In this document: in pieces, positions 9,151 to 39,817 of the stretch
Layout: each line of letters starts with the position of its first letter
How positions within the stretch are numbered: the stretch's first letter is position 1
Virus record (IMG/VR): IMGVR_UViG_3300028608_000035
Span: 1 to 41,717 of that record
Strand: one strand, 5' to 3'
Length of the DNA stretch: 41,717 bases
DNA from: a virus
The notes under the pieces: generated by a model
Database searches by the model: none
Told to the model about the DNA's origin: nothing
The model's input: the letters and a program-made list of their open reading frames with translations, nothing else
Position numbers and translations under genes: made by a program

Positions 9151-9678
9151 TTAGACCCCGGGCGCGGTGGGCCAAACGATATCGTCGGCTTGCGGGTCTA
9201 CCTTGTAGACAGCCGCGCGATACTTCCGCCATGCGAGCAATTGCGCCTCGTCTTCGGCGTTCGCTTCGCCCAGGTCAACCAAGTCTTGCAGCGGGTTGAT
9301 ATGCGAAGTTGCTTCTGCGAGCCGTCCGGCACGTTCACGCGTGATTTCTTCGACGGTTGGCGCAGCCGGTTCGGGTGCGGGTCCGAACACGCCATTTGCA
9401 TAGCTGTCACCTTGTCGCACGTCTTCGCCGCAAACGTGAATATCTTGCACCATGTCGGCGGGAAAACGATCTTCGATTGGAACCTCTTGTCCGATCGGGA
9501 AATTGTCATGTGCGGCAAGCAACGCATTGTGCAATTCCGTAGCAAGTTCGCCGGCATCCCCCGACAGCGGTTCCGGTGCTGCGGGTCGGTCGCTTTCTTG
9601 ATAAAAGTACGGTTCGATGAGTTCGAACACGATGCCGTCTGCCGACTCAGGACTATTTCGTTTCACATGGGCGTACAT
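9151..9678 (-). CDS. Tail fibre assembly chaperone (Caudo_TAP/Tfa-like), 175 aa
   Basis: The ATG at 9678 lies behind GAAGGAAA. The C-terminal third has the classical signature of tail-fibre assembly proteins: an acidic helix (LGEANAEDEAQLL) followed by AWRKYRAAVYKVD and WPTAPGV. The N-terminal half is variable and acidic, as expected for the part that recognises its own fibre. It lies directly downstream of the tail-fibre gene, the usual order, and would help trimerise or mature that fibre. Confidence 0.85.
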   Translation of the reverse strand: MYAHVKRNSPESADGIVFELIEPYFYQESDRPAAPEPLSGDAGELATELHNALLAAHDNFPIGQEVPIEDRFPADMVQDIHVCGEDVRQGDSYANGVFGPAPEPAAPTVEEITRERAGRLAEATSHINPLQDLVDLGEANAEDEAQLLAWRKYRAAVYKVDPQADDIVWPTAPGV

Positions 9679-9688
9679 AGTATTTCCT

Positions 9689-10978
9689 TCAGGAGTATTG
9701 ATCGATGACCGCGCAGCCTTGAAAGCCGTTGCCACCGCTCGCACCGCCAGCATTGCCGGCAGGAGCGTTACCACCCGAACCACCAGCACCATAAACAAGT
9801 GCTGTCAGGCCCGTAGCGTAATTGGTGACACCGTCTGCCCCACCGCCGAACGTTGAATCGCCACCTTTGCCGCTGATGGGACCAGGGCCATAGAACGCAT
9901 AGAGGCCGGACACGCCCTTGTAATTCAAGTCGCCGCCTGTGCTTCCGCCGCCGTTGCCCGAACCATACGGGAATGACGCTGTGTTTGCTTGCACAGGGCC
10001 GAACGTGCCCCCAGTGCCACCCGCTGCGGAAAAGATTGCACCGCAAGAGGTGGTGCCACCATTAGTTCCGTTCGCTGAATTGACACCGCCAACACCGGCA
10101 GCGCCGATGGTGAACGTCTGACCCAGTATTTGCGCACGCGTAAGTGTCTTTAGCGCTGCACCACCAGCACCGCCACCAGCACCGGACGCACATTGCGACG
10201 CGCCCACGCCTGCTGCTGCACCGCCGCCGCCCGCACCGCCGCCTTGCAATCGCACAACAAACCGGTTTGCAGCGTCAACCAATGTCGGTACGCCGGTTGC
10301 CGTGATAACAAGCGTCCCCAGGTACTGCCCAGGCATGGCCTTGATGTTCGTGCCATCGCCATAAACAAAAAGCGACCCGCTTGCAGGAACGATAACGCCA
10401 GTGCCTGCGGCGGTTTTTACAGTAAGCGAGAAATTGCCGGTGGTGTTGTTGACAATATGCCAGCGTTGCAGACGAGCGGGCAACGTCAATTGCACATTCG
10501 CAGTAAGCACGCCAGTAGCTGTAATGGTAGGTTGCGCAGCTTGCGCCGCCGACGCAACAACCGTCACGTTGGAGAACGCGATAGATGCGTTGGAACCGCC
10601 GACAGCTATCCATTTGGTCACATCGGTAGGAAGTGTATTATTGGCCGCTGCAATAGATTCGTAAATCACTCCGTCGGTATAACGCACTCGCGCGCCAAGC
10701 GGGTAGGCGTAGTTTGCAGCGCCGTTTTGCGCAGGGTCGATCCAATCGGGCACGCCGTTGGTTTGGTACTCTTGCAGCGCCGTGGTGATGTCGTAGTGAA
10801 GCTGATTGTTTTGGTTGCGCTCGATGTCCCGTGCGTTGGGGTCGGTGTAGGGCAACTCATATTGCGGGCCGTAACCTTGCTGCCAACTGACCGCACCGCT
10901 AACCTGCGTTGGGTCGGGAACTGCCGTTTTGTCACCGGCAACTGCGAACGGGTAGCGAAAGAACTTATTAAGGGCCAT
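9689..10978 (-). CDS. Tail fibre / receptor-binding adhesin with glycine-rich tip, 429 aa
   Basis: The start MALNKFFRYPFAVAGDK is at 10978, overlapping the preceding gene by 11 nt. The N-terminal ~100 residues would attach to the baseplate; a central beta-rich domain contains TITATGVLTANVQLTLPAR. The C-terminal ~170 residues consist largely of Gly-rich runs (GGGAGGGGAAAG, GGTGGTFG, GGSTGG) separated by short variable loops. This composition is like the polyglycine-II sandwich of T-even gp38-type adhesins, where the loops bind the receptor. It is the only obvious fibre gene and has its chaperone next door. Confidence 0.82.
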   Translation of the reverse strand: MALNKFFRYPFAVAGDKTAVPDPTQVSGAVSWQQGYGPQYELPYTDPNARDIERNQNNQLHYDITTALQEYQTNGVPDWIDPAQNGAANYAYPLGARVRYTDGVIYESIAAANNTLPTDVTKWIAVGGSNASIAFSNVTVVASAAQAAQPTITATGVLTANVQLTLPARLQRWHIVNNTTGNFSLTVKTAAGTGVIVPASGSLFVYGDGTNIKAMPGQYLGTLVITATGVPTLVDAANRFVVRLQGGGAGGGGAAAGVGASQCASGAGGGAGGAALKTLTRAQILGQTFTIGAAGVGGVNSANGTNGGTTSCGAIFSAAGGTGGTFGPVQANTASFPYGSGNGGGSTGGDLNYKGVSGLYAFYGPGPISGKGGDSTFGGGADGVTNYATGLTALVYGAGGSGGNAPAGNAGGASGGNGFQGCAVIDQYS

Positions 10979-15655: not shown

Positions 15656-17334
15656 TAGGCTACTACTCCGTCATCGTAGTTGTTGAGCGCTTGACTAACC
15701 TGCGTCTTCATCGAATTGCCGATTTCCTTGCTGATACCCTGCGCATCTGTGGCTTGCGTTTGCACTTCGACCTTATCAACTTGAACCGTAGTGTTGCGCG
15801 TGGTCGAAGTGCTATTGCTGATAGTGTTGGAGTTGTTCGAAGATATCGGCGATTCGCCCACGCGGCCTAGCATTTCCTTGCCGATGCTGATTGCCTCGCC
15901 TACGAAGTCGGTGCTTTGCGCACCTTTGATACCTTCTTTCAGCATCTTTACCGTATCGCCAACTGACGCCTTGATTTGATCCGCGAAGCCTCCAGCACCA
16001 CCCTTGATGCCGAGCAATTCGAACACTTGGTTGATAACGTCAATGATGTCCGTAAAGACTTTTTTAACGTCGGCTCCAATATCCTTGAGGTAATCAGTAA
16101 ATGATTTGAAGTTTGCGAGCCATTGCTCAATTGCCTGTTGGTTCTCCAAGCCCATGAGCGCCAGCATTTTGCGCCATGCCGTTTCGATGCCTTCCGTATC
16201 GCCGATGAGCCCGAACGTGAACGCCTTGAACGTTTCGCCCACGCTGTTAATTTTGCTCTTCAGGTCGTCCCACTTCGGCAGGAACCGCCCAAGCAAGCTA
16301 TCGCCGCCCTCAAGGTAGATTGTCAGGTCTTCATACATCAACGCGAAGGCTGCTACAACGGCCGCCACGGCTGCGCCGACAAGGAGGAAGGGGGCTAGCA
16401 TGGTAGCGAAGGCGATAGCACCTTTAATCGCCGCTGGAATCAAGAAATAGCTAATGGCCGTGCCGATGGCAATCAAAGCACCGCGTACCACGTCACTGTG
16501 CTTGATGATGTATTCGTAGAGTTCGTTCGTGACCTTGGTCACGAATTGCAGTCCTTTAATCAGGACCGGAATAAATGCCGAATACGAAGCGGACTTTAGT
16601 TTTTCAAAGAACGCAAAGAGGCTGTTAACCTCAATCTTCATCGCGTTCGATTGCTTCATGTACGCTTGCGACAACATGCGCACACGTTCGAAGTTGTAGC
16701 CGGCCGCCTTGTCGATGTCTTCCAGGCGCACATTTAATGCGGCAAGATCAGCGTTGAATAGTTTCAGCAACGCCGGGTTAAGACCCAAGCGCTCCATGAT
16801 ACGGACTTGCTTGCCCTTGTCCATATCCTTGAATTTGTCGGCAAGCTCCGTCATCAGGTCGGTGATGGGCTTTACCTTCCCCTGCGTGTCGGTTACGGTC
16901 ACGCCGAGTTCTTCGAATACCTTCTTTGCCCGACCCATGCCAAGCGCGGTATCTTGCGCAGCTTGGTTAAGGGCTTCCAGTCCGCCCTTAGTAACTTCTT
17001 CGCCGAGCCCGAGCAGTTGCCCGGTGTCCATGAATTGGTCTACGGCATCGGCCGTGGTGTTGAGGCGAGCAGCGAGCTTATCAAGCGCCGCCATTGCTTC
17101 GGCGTTTTCCTTGATGTTGTCGTAGAAGAGTTTTAGCGACAGGCTCAGACCAAACAGACTGGCACCACGCAACGCAAGGTCTTTCAACGTGGTATTAAGA
17201 CCTTGCGCGCCCAGGTCGGTTTTCTTGAGCGTATCGAGCAAGCCCTCCGCTTTTTGCTTGCTCTTGTCGATGCCTTGTTCTACCTCCTTCGTATCAGACT
17301 TGAACAGAACATAGAAGGTATCAAGGATCGTCAT
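15655..17334 (-). CDS. Tail tape measure protein, 559 aa
   Basis: The long helical protein begins MTILDTFYVLFKSDTKEVEQG, with long coiled-coil segments (KQKAEGLLDTLKKTDLGAQGL), central hydrophobic segments around AIGTAISYFLIPAAIKG and FATMLAPFLLVGAAVAAVVAAFA, and a Ser/Asn/Thr-rich C-terminal region. It determines tail length and is released during DNA entry, the hydrophobic stretches probably inserting in the host membrane. With about 0.15 nm per residue, a tail tube of around 80 nm would be expected. Preceded by the frameshifted chaperone genes, as usual. Confidence 0.9.
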   Translation of the reverse strand: MTILDTFYVLFKSDTKEVEQGIDKSKQKAEGLLDTLKKTDLGAQGLNTTLKDLALRGASLFGLSLSLKLFYDNIKENAEAMAALDKLAARLNTTADAVDQFMDTGQLLGLGEEVTKGGLEALNQAAQDTALGMGRAKKVFEELGVTVTDTQGKVKPITDLMTELADKFKDMDKGKQVRIMERLGLNPALLKLFNADLAALNVRLEDIDKAAGYNFERVRMLSQAYMKQSNAMKIEVNSLFAFFEKLKSASYSAFIPVLIKGLQFVTKVTNELYEYIIKHSDVVRGALIAIGTAISYFLIPAAIKGAIAFATMLAPFLLVGAAVAAVVAAFALMYEDLTIYLEGGDSLLGRFLPKWDDLKSKINSVGETFKAFTFGLIGDTEGIETAWRKMLALMGLENQQAIEQWLANFKSFTDYLKDIGADVKKVFTDIIDVINQVFELLGIKGGAGGFADQIKASVGDTVKMLKEGIKGAQSTDFVGEAISIGKEMLGRVGESPISSNNSNTISNSTSTTRNTTVQVDKVEVQTQATDAQGISKEIGNSMKTQVSQALNNYDDGVVA

Positions 17335-17343
17335 TTTAATTAC

Positions 17344-17577
17344 TCACTTTTTGTTAGCTTCTTCCATCGCTAACTGTTCGTTCATGCGGTTTACCGCGAT
17401 CACTTCCCAAATGTCTAGCGCTTCTTCTAACGTGTAGTCTTCTCTGAGTTCTTTGAGCGTTGCTTTTCCAGACTCGATAATTGCTCCAAAGAACCCATCA
17501 ACATTTTGGTAACCGACGCGAGCGCCTTTTGGGCGAAACCTTCCAAGAAACGGGAGGCTCGCCCGTCCGCGAAAAAA
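17344..17577 (-). CDS. Tail assembly chaperone C-terminal extension, reached by -1 frameshift
   Basis: This frame has no convincing start of its own. It reads DGFFGAIIESGKATLKELRED followed by YTLEEALDIWEVIAVNRMNE, resembling the C-terminal part (GT) of tail assembly chaperones. It lies in the -1 frame relative to the 155-aa chaperone and overlaps its 3' third. In-frame slippery candidates are TTTTTTC (17577-17571, codons 107-108, the canonical heptamer), CCAAAAG (17532-17526, codons 122-123) and GGAAAAG (17469-17463, codons 143-144). Each gives a 183-aa fusion. The residues encoded just after TTTTTTC look Arg-rich and less natural, so one of the later sites may be the true one. Confidence 0.7.
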   Translation of the reverse strand, partial: FFRGRASLPFLGRFRPKGARVGYQNVDGFFGAIIESGKATLKELREDYTLEEALDIWEVIAVNRMNEQLAMEEANKK

Positions 17578-26355: not shown

Positions 26356-27914
26356 TTTTGCGCTTCGACGGTAGCGGCACCAAGGGCAGGCGTAGCAGCA
26401 GGCGTGGGTGTTGGCAGCACGACTGGCACAGGGTCTTCAATGACCTTGCCAACCTCTAGCGACGGATATCCGCTGTCTTTATCGTTGGCAAGACGGATAC
26501 GTTCGTCTTCGCCGTCAATGGCGCCCGCTGTGACCAATGCCGCGCCGGTCTGTGCTTTCTTCAGATTGATTTCGGCCCACTCCGCAGCGGTCGGGCTATC
26601 GAGCGGTTCCCAACTTACCGTTGTGTCGATGTTGACGGCGTCGGGAATATCCGATCGGATCATCAATTGGTGGTGACGTTCAACGAATGGCGTGAGTTCG
26701 TGCTCTTGCAATGACTCAAGCATTTCGTGATAGCTCGATTCGTCAAACTCACCCGTTGCGTTGAAGCCCTTCGGCGCCGTGCCAAGCAGCTTGGTTGCAG
26801 GAACCTCGCCGGCCGCAGCGACAAGCTGATACTGCGTCATGATTACGCCGTCCATGTCTGCGAGAGACGTATCTTTTTGCTCGTGCTCTTCGCCGCTGTC
26901 GATGATGCGCACGCCGTTGTTGTTCCAGAAGGTTGCCCAATCGGCCACGCGGCGCAGTCCTGCCTTCAAGTTAGCCATGAATTGTTCCATGTCTACCTTG
27001 TAGATCACGGTACGCTTGGTGAGCGCGAGCAACGGCGCTTCATTGGCCGTACGCTCCGAAGCGTAGACGCGCTCCATGATTAGCTGTGGCACCGGCACAC
27101 CGCCAAACAGATAGGCGGGCTTCAGGATGTCAATCACGCTGCCGTGCCGGTAAATGACAAGGTGCGAGTAGTGGTAGCGACGACCGTTAATGAGCCAGTG
27201 TGTGGGCTCATAGAAATGCATGGTGTCAGGCTGCGCGCTGGCCTTCGCATCAAGCTCGGGCGAGCACCAATAGGGATCAACCTGCACGATGCCTTTGTAG
27301 CTGCCAGGGCGCACGCCGTCGATGTTGAACACACGTTCGTATGCAGCGTCGTCTAGCTCTTTGCTGCCGTAGTCAACTTTGAAGATGGCAATACGGATGC
27401 CGAACACGCGGCCGAAGTTGACAAATTCACGCAGGTTCTTTTTGATCTTGTATTTCTTGTCGCCGCGTTTGATCTTGCTTAGTACCGCAGGCTCAATCGG
27501 TTTGCCGTCGCTTGATACCGTGGTGTAGCCGTGACGGATGGCGTCTCGCCCTGGCATGTCGCAAACCTTCTGGATAAGCCAGTGCTGCGCGATGATGCCG
27601 GCCAACTGATGACCGATAAACGTTTGTGCGTTGTACCAAGAGGCAATGGCGTCGCTAATGTTCGGTTGCCCGTAGTCGTAGGCGTCGAACAGGCTTTCTT
27701 CGCACTCCGCGTCGGCCGCATCCATTGCGACGCCTTCAGCGGCTTCCAATCGCGGCGCAATGGCCTTCAAGCCGGCAATCCGGGCCTTGATGTTCAACGT
27801 GTTGCGCTGGTGCGTGCTGAAGTCGCCGCCCGCAAAGCCCGGCTTGCTCGGCGCTTCTTCCTCGGGTTGCGGCGCGGGCTCGGGTGCGTTCTTACCAAAA
27901 AGCCATTTGAACAT
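26352..27914 (-). CDS. Portal protein (DUF1073-like), 520 aa
   Basis: The ATG at 27914 lies behind AAGGA; upstream in-frame starts overlap TerL. The protein reads MFKWLFGKNAPEPAPQPEEEAP, with WYNAQTFIGHQLAGIIAQHWLIQKVCDMPGRDAIRHG, then FVNFGRVFGIRIAIFKVD, and the core AAAGEVPATKLLGTAPKGFNATGE. All are characteristic of DUF1073 portal proteins. The C-terminus is Pro/Ala-rich. Automated pipelines may label this family with the anti-CBASS name Acb1; I see no basis here for that function. Confidence 0.9.
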   Translation of the reverse strand: MFKWLFGKNAPEPAPQPEEEAPSKPGFAGGDFSTHQRNTLNIKARIAGLKAIAPRLEAAEGVAMDAADAECEESLFDAYDYGQPNISDAIASWYNAQTFIGHQLAGIIAQHWLIQKVCDMPGRDAIRHGYTTVSSDGKPIEPAVLSKIKRGDKKYKIKKNLREFVNFGRVFGIRIAIFKVDYGSKELDDAAYERVFNIDGVRPGSYKGIVQVDPYWCSPELDAKASAQPDTMHFYEPTHWLINGRRYHYSHLVIYRHGSVIDILKPAYLFGGVPVPQLIMERVYASERTANEAPLLALTKRTVIYKVDMEQFMANLKAGLRRVADWATFWNNNGVRIIDSGEEHEQKDTSLADMDGVIMTQYQLVAAAGEVPATKLLGTAPKGFNATGEFDESSYHEMLESLQEHELTPFVERHHQLMIRSDIPDAVNIDTTVSWEPLDSPTAAEWAEINLKKAQTGAALVTAGAIDGEDERIRLANDKDSGYPSLEVGKVIEDPVPVVLPTPTPAATPALGAATVEAQK

Positions 27915-35717: not shown

Positions 35718-36104
35718 TCACTTCAAACCGCGAGCCTCCAAATCCGTTGGTTCCATGTGGAACTGTCGAACGAACCGACACCCGCAGGACTTGACCGCAC
35801 CCGAGCGAAGACGGTTAGCAGGAACCTCTTTACTTCCCCCGCATTTGCACTGGCACAGGTACGTGCGGCCCAAGCCCTGCACGCTGTCAACCTCGCGCAC
35901 AACCGTCAAATCATGGAACACGTCGCCGCGTCGCAATTCACCTTTTCTACGCGGCTCGTTGTGCAACGCTTCGGCCTGCGACGTTTGCCACGCTGCGGCG
36001 CAAAGCGCCGTTGTGCGATCCGCGTAGACGCGCTGCATTGTCATAGGCTCAGTCTTCTGCCGCATGCTCAATCCTTGCGACCTTGCCCACTCTTCGAACT
36101 GCAT
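35718..36104 (-). CDS. Zinc-ribbon protein (HNH/AP2-endonuclease-associated type), 128 aa
   Basis: Start ATG at 36104 behind GGGAAG. The C-terminal domain has the pattern DVFHDLTVVREV ... TYLCQCKCGGSKEV ... LRSGAVKSCGCRF: C84, C86, C88 and C107, C109. This ribbon is common at the N-terminus of phage HNH/AP2 endonucleases and as a stand-alone DNA-binding protein; here no nuclease domain follows. The N-terminal ~50 residues (MQFEEWARSQGLSMRQ) are helical. Directly behind TerS, 1 nt apart. Confidence 0.72.
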   Translation of the reverse strand: MQFEEWARSQGLSMRQKTEPMTMQRVYADRTTALCAAAWQTSQAEALHNEPRRKGELRRGDVFHDLTVVREVDSVQGLGRTYLCQCKCGGSKEVPANRLRSGAVKSCGCRFVRQFHMEPTDLEARGLK

Positions 36105-36105
36105 G

Positions 36106-36891
36106 CTACTTCCCATCCCCACGCAACCACGCTTGATAGACCCGTGACGCTTCGGACTCATCGTGCGGCAAGGCCGGCACGCCATCGGCAGGCGCACCAG
36201 GGGGCAAGAGCTTTACCGTCTCCGTGAACATGCCGAGCGCCTTCATGATCCGCTCGTGTGCACCGTCTTGGTTGCGCGTCAGTATCTCGATACGCCCATT
36301 CTTGTTGATCTTTGCCCCTGCGTACAGCTTGCGGGCCGCACCCGTCAGCTTGCGCGTGTCGGCTACCTTGATGTCCTCCGTGCCCTCGCCGTCGCACCGT
36401 GGGCAGTCGGGGTGGGGCGCCGCGATGCGTACGAAGCCGTAGCCTCCATCGTCGGTGGGTAGCTGCACGGGCGGTGTCTTCGGACCGCGCCGCTTGTCCT
36501 GTATGCCCTTCAGGTCGATTGCGCGGGCCAGGGCTTCGGCAAACTCTCGGGGGTCGCGCCATTGGTACTCGTGGTTCTTACCGTTGCAATACCGGCAATT
36601 TAACCGGCGAACCTGTACAAGTTCGTTGGCGTCGGCAGTGTGTAAATCAATGGCGTCGCGCATCGCTTCGACCACGCCATAAATTACTTGCTTGGCTGCG
36701 GCGGCTTTAAGTTGCGAGATTCTGGCAGCTACCTTTGGGCTTGCTGCCAATCGTGAGGCGGTACTGTTAACTGTGTCAGGTTTCCAATTCCGGCAATCGT
36801 ATACCTCACGATACGCCTTCGTGTACTCGCCGAGCTTCACAACCGCGTTAGCAAATTGCTCTTGCTTTATGTTTAACGATTCTTTTGTCAT
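36106..36891 (-). CDS. Terminase small subunit (TerS) with zinc knuckles, 261 aa
   Basis: The N-terminal ~65 residues (LNIKQEQFANAVVKLGEYTKAYREVY, then SRLAASPKVAARISQL) are the typical DNA-binding helix-turn-helix of Terminase_2-type small subunits. Two CxxC pairs follow (C99/C102 and C163/C166), likely a zinc module; this is longer than a minimal TerS. A helical C-terminal part follows (ERIMKALGMFTETVKLLPPG). It would recognise the pac site and recruit TerL, which is encoded 6.6 kb away. Confidence 0.85.
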   Translation of the reverse strand: MTKESLNIKQEQFANAVVKLGEYTKAYREVYDCRNWKPDTVNSTASRLAASPKVAARISQLKAAAAKQVIYGVVEAMRDAIDLHTADANELVQVRRLNCRYCNGKNHEYQWRDPREFAEALARAIDLKGIQDKRRGPKTPPVQLPTDDGGYGFVRIAAPHPDCPRCDGEGTEDIKVADTRKLTGAARKLYAGAKINKNGRIEILTRNQDGAHERIMKALGMFTETVKLLPPGAPADGVPALPHDESEASRVYQAWLRGDGK

Positions 36892-37183
36892 CGATCACGC
36901 TCCAGGTAACAAGCAGAGGTTTCAAGCATGGGCACAAGCACAAAACCCGACTGCCACCATAATAAATATATGAATCGAGCCGTCAGCCGGCCTGTTTTCA
37001 TTCTTTCTATTCTCTCTTCTTCTTATCTTATAACCTTGTAACTAGTAACTAAAAAGAAGAAAAAGAGAGAGAAATCAACAACTTAGCGAAGTTACGGGCC
37101 TGGTTACGACATCACCGCCACCCACTCTACAATCTGCCCGTAACCTCACTCCGTTAATTACTATAAATTACTACAATTGCTGG
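36892..37183. other. AT-rich noncoding region between primase and TerS: candidate origin/operator
   Basis: No gene is visible in 292 bp. A pyrimidine tract (37001-37030) faces a purine tract (37051-37074) across about 20 nt and can fold into a long imperfect hairpin. A possible leftward promoter (TTTAGT, 17 bp, TAAGAT) spans about 37025-37055 on the minus strand in front of terS. GTTAC/GTAAC boxes are scattered over the right half. The AT-rich composition contrasts with the GC-rich genes. Confidence 0.6.
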
Positions 37184-37191
37184 TTACGGGC
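37030..37191. repeat. Array of GTTAC boxes (iteron- or operator-like)
   Basis: GTTACGGGC occurs at 37091-37099 and 37183-37191 and inverted (GCCCGTAAC) at 37136-37144. Shorter GTTAC/GTAAC boxes occur near 37039, 37045 and 37104, with a degenerate copy at 37030. The rightmost copy overlaps the stop codon of the primase gene. About seven boxes in 160 bp is far above what I would expect by chance. Confidence 0.6.
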
Positions 37192-39817
37192 TACGGGGTA
37201 CGGTCGTGGCATCCAGTAACCTGCGCAAATTGTCGTTATCTTCGTCAACCCCCGGCTTGATCCACAGCCGATGCGATACGTTCTGCCATTTAACGACACG
37301 CGTAACCTTCATGAAGCCCATGCGATTAAGCAAATGGTGAAGGCTCGTTGTCTTGGGCACTTCCACACCTTCTATAAATGTGCGAGCCTTGAGCGCACTT
37401 GTCAGCATGGAACTACTGAGCACCGTGGCCGATACCCCGAACGCACCTTCTTCAACGATGCTACGCAGGATGCTTTCAACGTCGTCAACGCCGCTTTGAG
37501 CCATGATCTTCTTTTCGTCGGTCATGAGCGCCGCACCGTCGGCGGAGAACCACTCAGGGATCGGCAGCGACATCAGCCACGCGCGCCATTGCCCAGGTTC
37601 GCTGCGCAGGCTGTTGAATATGGCGTCGAAGTAGGCCCGTACCTCGGGTTCGCTCGTTGCTCCTAGCGCTTCGTACAACTGTGCGCGGTTGGCAAACGGA
37701 CTGAAGACAACGAACCAGCGTCTATCCTGCGTCTCATCCAACGGGATACCGTCAGTGTGGTTCGTATAGGCAATCTTGCAGCACGTATTTACTACGTCCT
37801 TTGGCTTCGCGCCCTTCGGATAAATATTGACGTCGTTGTTGGAGATAAACAGCTTAAGGCGGTTGGCGATCATGAATCGCTCACGCCCCGTCATGTACAT
37901 TTCTTCAAGCGCAATGAACGCATAGCCGTGCGCCCAGTCCGTGAAGCCGCCGCTGTTGCAGATAATCTCGGGACCGAAGCTGCTCACGTTGCGCCGCCCC
38001 ATGGCCGCCTTCATGACTTCGGTAATCATGGACTTGCCATCACCCTCAGTGCCTTTGATGATCGGCACCCACCGAATCAGCTTGCCCGGCTTCTGCACGC
38101 AATGCGCCATGAACGCCAGGAGGTTCTGATAGATCATTTCGCGACGGCCGCACAGAAGCCACAAATGGCCCTTGAAGCGCTCAATCGCGGCCACGCCTTG
38201 CTCTGTGTACGGCGTGGCCTGCGGCAAGCTGCTAGCGCTGTACAGGTTGGCCCATCGCCGACCGTCGTAGTCAATCAGCGCCGCAGCGCGTGGGTCGTAC
38301 ATCGTGTCATGCACAAGCGGCACGTTCCATTTGTGCAATGCCCACACGTGCGAGTCTTCGCGCATGACACCGTCGCCTTTAAACGGCATGTCGCGGTCGT
38401 GAGTTGCCTTGAAGCTGGCTACGCTGATGTCATAGCCATTAACGATGTCAAAGTATTTGTCGTTCTGACGAACGTACACGTAATTGTCAATCCATGTCGG
38501 CCGCTCAATGTCGTCACCTTCTGCCGGCTCACCGACAACACGCGGCGATGCCAGGAGCGCCCGCAACTTGGCAACGGGTAGCTTTGCGTCCCACAGGTCA
38601 AGGCGCTTGTTAACGGCAGTCTCCAGGCGCGGCATCAGCGCTGGCGGCACACCGGCTGCGCGGATGGCAGGTATCACGCGATTGTGTACGTCGTCCCAAT
38701 CCGTTGCGCTACTTACCATGCTCAACAAATCGTCAATGAGCTTCTTCACTTCAGGCGACACGACCGGCACCACCACGGGAGCGCCCGGCACACCGGGCAG
38801 CATCGGCAATGGTGGCAGAGGCACAGTACCTTGCATGGCGTACAGTGCAGCCCTTGCCTCTGCCTTGCGGTCCTTGCACACGTCGCCTTGCTGCGCGCAT
38901 GCGTTGGTAATGGTCAACTCGCGCAGATACGTGCGGTGCATGTCCCACTTCGGCCTCGCCATCCGGCTCTTGCGCATAAGGCGCTCGATGCGCGGTGCGT
39001 CGCAGCCTGTCCAAAACGCAAGGTGCTGCGCCAACGCCATGTCGGCTTCGGTCCTGCCTTGGGGGCCGTAGAAGCGCAACAGCGCTGCCTCATCAGCATT
39101 CCACAAGTCGGCAAAGCTCGCCTTGTTGCCCATCTTCGCAGCCACGCTCGGGCTAGCAAGCGCCTTCGCAATCAACTCATCGTCATCAACCGGACCGGAC
39201 CAATCCGCGCGAGGCGTGGCGAACTCGCCGGCTTCAGCCTCGGGGCGTGAGGGAAAATACAGGCTCGCAATTGACGCAATGGCAGTGCTGCCAACATCGG
39301 CGCTACCCCACGCCCTGCCGCTCGTGCCAAACGCAATGCCGCGCTTCTCGGTGTAGAGCTCTGCGCCAATCTCCTTGTTGCGCTTCGCGTGCGCCGGCAC
39401 CGTGCCCTTGCCTATCACGTGGCAACCGTTGCCGCTGCTACTCAGTTCAAAGAAGCAACCGGGCAACTGGCTCAACCACTCCAGCGCCTGCGGTGTGTAC
39501 TGCCCCTGCGCGTCGATGCACTTATCGATATCGAGGAACCAATACCTCACTTCGGCCGTTAGGTAGAAGCCGAGGGTGTACCTTACCCCCTCTTCGTAGT
39601 TCGACGCGTTCCAGGCGTCTACGTTGGTCTGCGCGTACGCCAGGGCCTGCCAGTTGTGCGGCAAGCTCGCGTCCATGGGGAACGGCTCACCCGCTGCGCG
39701 ACACGGGTGCTTCAAAAACTTTCCTTCTTCTGCATCCCACACCATGCGCCACACGAACCATTGTGGAATGTTTGCCAGGGAACCAACCGCCTCAAGTAAT
39801 GTTTTGTCTTGCTGCAT
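37184..39817 (-). CDS. Primase-polymerase / SF3 helicase, 877 aa
   Basis: The N-terminal domain is a Prim-Pol type primase: YWFLDIDKC (about residues 93-101) supplies the metal-binding aspartates and FELSSSGNGCHVIGKG (about 122-137) the conserved S-G-x-G-x-H motif. The C-terminal third is an SF3 helicase: Walker A GTEGDGKS (589-596), Walker B YAFIALEEM, and the sensor/motif C region KIAYTNHTDG with ETQDRRWFVV. It would synthesise primers and unwind the phage origin. Start ATG at 39817 with GAGG upstream. It lies between a terminator and the GTTAC-box region, into which its stop codon extends. Confidence 0.92.
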   Translation of the reverse strand: MQQDKTLLEAVGSLANIPQWFVWRMVWDAEEGKFLKHPCRAAGEPFPMDASLPHNWQALAYAQTNVDAWNASNYEEGVRYTLGFYLTAEVRYWFLDIDKCIDAQGQYTPQALEWLSQLPGCFFELSSSGNGCHVIGKGTVPAHAKRNKEIGAELYTEKRGIAFGTSGRAWGSADVGSTAIASIASLYFPSRPEAEAGEFATPRADWSGPVDDDELIAKALASPSVAAKMGNKASFADLWNADEAALLRFYGPQGRTEADMALAQHLAFWTGCDAPRIERLMRKSRMARPKWDMHRTYLRELTITNACAQQGDVCKDRKAEARAALYAMQGTVPLPPLPMLPGVPGAPVVVPVVSPEVKKLIDDLLSMVSSATDWDDVHNRVIPAIRAAGVPPALMPRLETAVNKRLDLWDAKLPVAKLRALLASPRVVGEPAEGDDIERPTWIDNYVYVRQNDKYFDIVNGYDISVASFKATHDRDMPFKGDGVMREDSHVWALHKWNVPLVHDTMYDPRAAALIDYDGRRWANLYSASSLPQATPYTEQGVAAIERFKGHLWLLCGRREMIYQNLLAFMAHCVQKPGKLIRWVPIIKGTEGDGKSMITEVMKAAMGRRNVSSFGPEIICNSGGFTDWAHGYAFIALEEMYMTGRERFMIANRLKLFISNNDVNIYPKGAKPKDVVNTCCKIAYTNHTDGIPLDETQDRRWFVVFSPFANRAQLYEALGATSEPEVRAYFDAIFNSLRSEPGQWRAWLMSLPIPEWFSADGAALMTDEKKIMAQSGVDDVESILRSIVEEGAFGVSATVLSSSMLTSALKARTFIEGVEVPKTTSLHHLLNRMGFMKVTRVVKWQNVSHRLWIKPGVDEDNDNLRRLLDATTVPRSP

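Follow-up and report, generated by a model that had tools for sequence, protein, structure and literature searches.

The segment between the small terminase gene (TerS) and the primase-helicase gene of this phage is, in all likelihood, a replication origin, and its GTTAC boxes would then be iterons to which the primase-helicase binds through its predicted C-terminal winged helix. The window analysed here is the entire virus record of 41,717 bases, in which a cluster of GGTTAC words around the most A/T-rich stretch very probably marks, to judge from the sequence, the start site of phage DNA copying. The observed basis of this reading is the clustering of the boxes, the conserved position and layout of the array, the covariation of the box word with the C-terminal domain of the primase-helicase and the homology of this protein to NrS-1 polymerase; binding, melting and priming at the segment we infer by analogy with known systems.

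Box array and genomic setting

On the minus strand a reading frame for a helicase, about 600 codons long, runs without interruption across the joined contig ends (41309-41717 plus 1-1397), and the record is therefore probably a complete, circularly permuted genome. Its genes include a tail sheath, and the phage encodes its own DNA polymerase, an exonuclease and a gp2.5-like single-strand binding protein (SSB). As the first-pass annotation had stated, the segment borders the primase-helicase gene, adjoining and slightly overlapping its 3' end, and TerS is encoded next to it on the same strand as the primase; the segment thus lies downstream of the primase gene and upstream of the TerS gene, both on the minus strand. 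An HNH endonuclease-like reading frame (phrog_374; 35718-36197, minus strand) is situated beside terS. The proposed features, with the genes and protein domains that flank them, are as follows.

36106-36891, minus strand: small terminase gene TerS (Pfam PF03592, E 1e-9; phrog_51), a neighbour and not the proposed box reader
36892-37220, no strand: proposed replication origin, iteron array and AT-rich core (from clustering, G+C and relatives)
36906-36910, minus strand: box GTTAC, the outermost one, near the TerS start
37000-37075, no strand: AT-rich pyrimidine/purine tract, 26% G+C, proposed unwinding element, corresponding to the hairpin of the first-pass annotation
37038-37042, minus strand: box GTTAC
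37045-37049, minus strand: box GTTAC
37073-37087, minus strand: spacer GCTAAGTTGTTGATT, 15/15 identical at the same place in Stenotrophomonas phage Silvanus
37091-37099, plus strand: box GTTACGGGC (exact match)
37103-37107, plus strand: box GTTAC in the context CTGGTTACG
37136-37144, minus strand: box GTTACGGGC (exact match)
37183-37191, plus strand: box GTTACGGGC (GGTTACGGGC from 37182; exact match), overlapping the primase stop codon
37216-37220, minus strand: box GGTTAC within the primase 3' end
37184-39817, minus strand: primase-helicase gene, 877 aa, proposed initiator (Pfam and NrS-1 polymerase structure matches)
37211-37519, minus strand: part coding for the predicted winged helix, residues about 767-869, proposed box-reading domain (AF2 model, covariation)
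37718-38056, minus strand: part coding for the DUF5906 helicase core, residues 588-700 (Pfam PF19263, E 1e-12; NrS-1 CTR match 506-704)
38879-39052, minus strand: part coding for the NrS-1-type helix-bundle domain, residues 256-313 (Pfam PF22763, E 6e-19)

About seven GTTAC/GTAAC boxes had been reported for 36892-37191, and exactly seven were counted there, at 36906, 37038, 37045 and 37140 on the minus strand and at 37091, 37103 and 37183 on the plus strand; two further GTTAC, at 37216 and 37302 (both minus), fall inside the primase 3' end. The three extended boxes claimed in both orientations are the exact copies of GTTACGGGC listed above, and these are the only copies in all 41,717 bases. 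In 200 order-2 Markov simulations no 300-bp interval held more than 5 GTTAC and no 150 bp more than one GTTACGGGC, the corresponding maxima of the real genome being 8 and three; none of the simulated genomes (0/200) reached the box cluster. Since the GTTAC count is not enriched genome-wide (47 seen vs 55 expected), only the clustering is special. The AT-richness ascribed to the segment was likewise borne out, as no 100 bp of the genome are lower in G+C than those at 36996 (29%). The array displays the hallmarks of SF3-type iteron origins, namely several copies of a short word (7-9 GTTAC) crowded into a non-coding segment, an AT-rich core between or beside the repeats, and a location directly downstream of the initiator/primase gene, found likewise in relatives, and it is looser than the arrays of those relatives. 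GC skew, which the first-pass annotation had suggested as a check, showed no clean switch at the segment and was uninformative; Rfam and tRNA scans gave no matches.

The protein encoded beside the array comprises an AEP prim-pol part, a helix-bundle domain (HBD), a DUF5906 SF3-type helicase and a C-terminal winged-helix-like domain. Matches to NrS-1 polymerase (7rr4, 6k9a, 6k9e) were obtained with phmmer over the prim-pol, HBD and helicase parts, the SF3-type helicase being recognised through DUF5906 together with the NrS-1 helicase match. With its AEP part, an HBD that scores above the PF22763 cutoff and an SF3-like C-terminal region, the window protein is, by sequence, a relative of the NrS-1 primase-polymerase. 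Because the full-length AF2 model was poor (mean pLDDT 53), only its C-terminal part was used, where pLDDT is mostly 78-87 in the whole model and averages 81 when the domain is modelled alone. The top structural matches of this domain were mostly winged helices, all weak; as Z reached at most 7.3 and Foldseek returned no match at E <= 0.001 (E above 0.05), the last hundred residues of the primase are consistent with a winged helix rather than proven to form one.

The array in relatives, NrS-1 and phage A2

Neither blastn of the segment against phages nor a scan of viral contigs with the window primase alone gave a match, and relatives were therefore found with tblastn and with alignments of two and of six sequences. 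Eighty viral relatives were fetched, and the window and 22 relatives were looked at in detail. Scored against control windows of the same loci, a repeated 5-mer cluster at the primase stop came out above their 99th percentile in 22 of these 23; no such cluster was present in L104, and for Psp6 2 of 54 control windows of its own genome equal the value of its array. Arrays at the primase 3' end were thus found in nearly all 22 relatives. Psp6, Silvanus and metagenomic relatives, whose primases are 34-45% identical to that of the window and whose next genes differ, carry an array after the primase stop. Psp6 and Silvanus, with primases about 38-47% identical in pairwise comparison, have no DNA similarity to the window by blastn, and their GTTAC arrays begin at the primase stop, with inverted groups flanking an AT/pyrimidine-rich spacer; the Psp6 array occupies about 22.99-23.21 kb. 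Many more distant primase relatives (27-30% identity) have no array at the primase end, and no clear array was seen there in MSW-3, SppYZU01, 9NA, CP-T1, Klebsiella JD001-like phages and similar distant relatives.

A reverse scan for a GGTTACNGGTTACNGGTTAC triple returned 73 contigs, including near-duplicates (L036/L088 and L045/L068, while L040 is the contig of L006); the primase profile matched at 11 loci, at 9 of which the triple lies 109-209 bp beyond the primase 3' end. As an origin marker the triple alone was rejected as not diagnostic, because most other matches had no recognisable primase and some were plain tandem repeats (L085).

Several further repeat arrays were observed. Past the primase stop of one contig (L014 and L119) the layout is similar, with GGTTTG/CAAACC boxes rather than GGTTAC, and in the Gram-positive phages B025 of Listeria (L023) and rho14 of Bacillus (L025) arrays of the words GGTGGATAG and GTTACTT follow the primase at the same place. 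Bordetella phage BIP-1 (L103), where the origin put forward in the 2014 pRN1 study is a stem-loop alone (PMC4234260), has 4-5 copies of AACGAGGCAAAC-like repeats downstream of the primase end at record position 27177. In L011, L012 and L013 inverted arrays of GTGGTAAA/TTTACCAC type (GTACC in L012) are placed about 400-710 bases past the primase stop and directly precede a TerS-like gene; the primase of these phages shares only its N-terminal half with that of the window. Psp6 (L002) carries at about 9480-9790, just upstream of terS and apart from its GTTAC array, repeats of GATAGAGATAG type that are a possible packaging or regulatory site.

NrS-1 and Lactobacillus phage A2 offer two independent points of reference. 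Eight of the 12 GGTTAC in the NrS-1 genome are found at 17061-17257, directly past the polymerase stop at 17051, and the single exact TTTGGTTA of the genome, which is the published recognition sequence of the NrS-1 primase (PMC8718748), is one of the array boxes; a 2020 paper counts two copies of the 8-nt recognition sequence in NrS-1, whereas one exact TTTGGTTA was found here. The array is covered by an annotated CDS, NRS1_29 (17055-17456), which may not be a real gene, and it is not mentioned in the NrS-1 polymerase literature searched. NrS-1 resembles the window in its homologous prim-pol/HBD/SF3 protein, in the GGTTAC array directly 3' of the gene and in the TerS gene after the array. It differs in its denser array, and the window phage, unlike NrS-1, has a separate DNA polymerase. 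The exact TTTGGTTA 8-mer does not occur in the window, where TGGTTAC is found at 37101 and 37181.

Lactobacillus phage A2, whose primase is homologous, has an annotated rep_origin (AJ251789, 32208-32717) that starts in the primase 3' end, the same place as the window array, and this lends support to the proposal of an iteron origin for the primase-helicase. As in the window, its boxes, of GGTTACGGGAGG type, occur in both orientations and flank an AT-rich core and a pyrimidine tract, but its primase is only about 26% identical, the box is longer and the host is Gram-positive. The origins of A2 and Streptococcus Sfi21 have reportedly been tested experimentally.

Box words, their reader and alternative roles of the segment

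Among the close relatives the layout is constant and the box word changes as a set, being GTTACA, GTAACA, GTCCCA or GTCACA; in more remote relatives ATTACA, CTGAG, GTGTA and GGAGTA were found. In ten close relatives the C-terminal domains of same-word pairs are 90.8% identical and those of different-word pairs 80.3% (0/5000 permutations, a count over related phages that is not a true probability because the phages are kin). With the same reservation, the word effect was weaker in the adjoining helicase end (48/5000) and absent from the prim-pol (3661/5000), the HBD (3890/5000), the linker and the front half of the helicase; the masked origin backbone correlates with the word too (13/5000), and TerS does not track it (2816/5000; first 70 columns 2245/5000). 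L107 and L122, with GTTACA and GTCCCA boxes respectively, are 80% identical in the C-terminal domain and 94-99% in all other parts, and L115 and L122, which have a common word, are 100% identical in the C-terminal domain and 74% in the prim-pol parts. Among the residues at which the word groups differ are 829 and 838-848 of the window protein, which in the model would form the end of a putative recognition helix and the wing.

These sequence patterns are explained most simply if the boxes are read by the C-terminal winged helix and the two are kept matched by selection. Physical linkage contributes to the covariation, since the C-terminal domain is encoded next to the boxes and the two travel together; the one argument for more than proximity is that TerS, which is equally adjacent, shows no effect. 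Beyond the window, we favour, with some reserve, the view that phages with NrS-1-type and related DUF5906 primases possess a swappable initiator-origin pair, in which the C-terminal winged helix (residues about 829-848) would set a 5-6 base word and the iterons would switch in concert, while the prim-pol, the helicase core and the neighbours stay unchanged. If this is true, TTTGGTTA of NrS-1 would be one iteron of its origin and not an isolated template motif.

The prim-pol half has its own claim to the boxes. NrS-1 polymerase and its N-terminal part (N300) recognise TTTGGTTA in vitro (PMC8718748), and TTTGGTTA sits in the NrS-1 array, so the boxes of the origin could be single-stranded start sites read by the prim-pol/helix-bundle half, the C-terminal domain being uninvolved in the choice. 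We consider this unlikely: the C-terminal domain tracks the word whereas the prim-pol and HBD do not, in L045 and L088 the same DUF5906 half is joined to a DUF3854 N-terminus, and yet both have GGTTAC arrays, and L011-L013 share the prim-pol half with the window but have a different, GTGGTAAA-like word before TerS. A template preference of the prim-pol for GGTTA, as suggested by TTTGGTTA, and binding of the boxes by the winged helix are compatible roles. Still less probable, to the point of being nearly discounted, is that the large pyrimidine/purine hairpin is the key feature, as in the proposed stem-loop origins of pRN1 and BIP-1, and the boxes incidental, even though pRN1 replication requires a stem-loop 3' of the prim-pol/SF3 gene (PMC4234260). 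The hairpin reported at 37001-37074 does exist, with arms at 37011-37029 and 37052-37070 that are 84% complementary, but it is not clearly stronger than the folds of shuffled sequences (14 of 200 fold as well or better), and the part of the origin argument that relied on it found no support. Fold energy is ordinary in the phage relatives other than NrS-1 (z +0.4 to -1.4), the stem was not found to be conserved among relatives whereas the boxes are, and neither the window nor its close relatives have a conserved large stem-loop 3' of the gene as in pRN1.

The first-pass annotation had also offered two roles connected with TerS, which our comparison disfavours because the word follows the C-terminal domain and not TerS. 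The array could be the site (pac) at which the neighbouring TerS initiates packaging, as TerS is the next gene in the window, in NrS-1, in L150 and in all ten close relatives tested (among them L107 and L110-L113); in many relatives, however, the array persists at the primase where the following gene is a lysis, capsid-like or other gene, and pac is therefore a very improbable function. An operator through which a phage repressor or the primase controls terS or late transcription, with no role in replication, would fit an array that precedes terS on the same strand, and initiators often autoregulate. On the other hand, the array is located downstream of the primase and away from the primase promoter, the promoter-like matches are weak and number only 2, with 0.8 expected, the homologous A2 region is annotated as an origin, and the next genes differ between relatives, which makes the operator, too, most doubtful. 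The iteron origin, by contrast, accommodates boxes that stay at the primase 3' end whatever gene follows and whose words track the C-terminal domain of the primase.

In such an iteron origin, the predicted winged helix at the C-terminus of the adjacent primase-helicase would bind the boxes in double-stranded form, and several molecules would assemble on the inverted box groups flanking the AT-rich tract. The SF3-type helicase ring could then open this tract, the fused prim-pol would lay down the first primers within it, and the DNA polymerase, helicase and single-strand binding protein of the phage itself would extend them. Binding, ring formation, opening and priming are proposed by analogy with SaPI Rep, P4 alpha and SCCmec Cch2 (PMC7581432; PMC4234260). 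This assigns a candidate origin of replication to a broad range of phages in which primase-polymerase and helicase are fused, and the template sequence of NrS-1, whose place in replication had been left open, would acquire a physical location. Natural pairs of initiators that are up to 94% identical and have different words suit a direct test of the DNA-recognition code of the family, and such origins could be found by searching the 3' end of the primase gene for a single short word arrayed in inverted orientation.

Comparison with known initiator-origin systems

In SaPI and SCCmec, iterons directly downstream of the gene of the initiator helicase are recognised by its C-terminal domain, and the SCCmec primase prefers to start at the Cch2 site (PMC7581432); in the PICIs of Gram-negative bacteria the ori likewise lies downstream of the primase gene (PMC10111431). 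The SaPI Rep origin, the GN-PICI ori and the SCCmec Cch2 site thus share with the window an origin directly downstream of the initiator/primase gene, but these elements have other initiators and words, their primase is usually a separate protein, and they are satellites or islands and not full phages. P4 alpha is like the window protein in uniting primase, helicase and winged helix (the last predicted in the window protein) in one chain, the P4 winged helix binding origin repeats (PMC4234260), and unlike it in that its primase is of the TOPRIM type, not AEP. ORF904 of pRN1 resembles the window protein, with its predicted winged helix, in joining AEP prim-pol, SF3 and winged-helix parts, and a region immediately 3' of the ORF904 gene is essential; this region is, in contrast, described as a stem-loop without iterons, and its authors found no specific binding (PMC4234260). 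The same 2014 study proposed a stem-loop without iterons for prim-pol phages of this kind (PMC4234260). Iteron origins downstream of an SF3 initiator are already known from SaPI, P4, PICI and SCCmec, whereas the link to the NrS-1 array and the covariation of word and domain appear to be new within the literature searched. Since such iteron origins are known, while the pRN1 study proposed no iterons and the NrS-1 papers searched mention no array, the window element is best placed in a known class of origins with a variant initiator.
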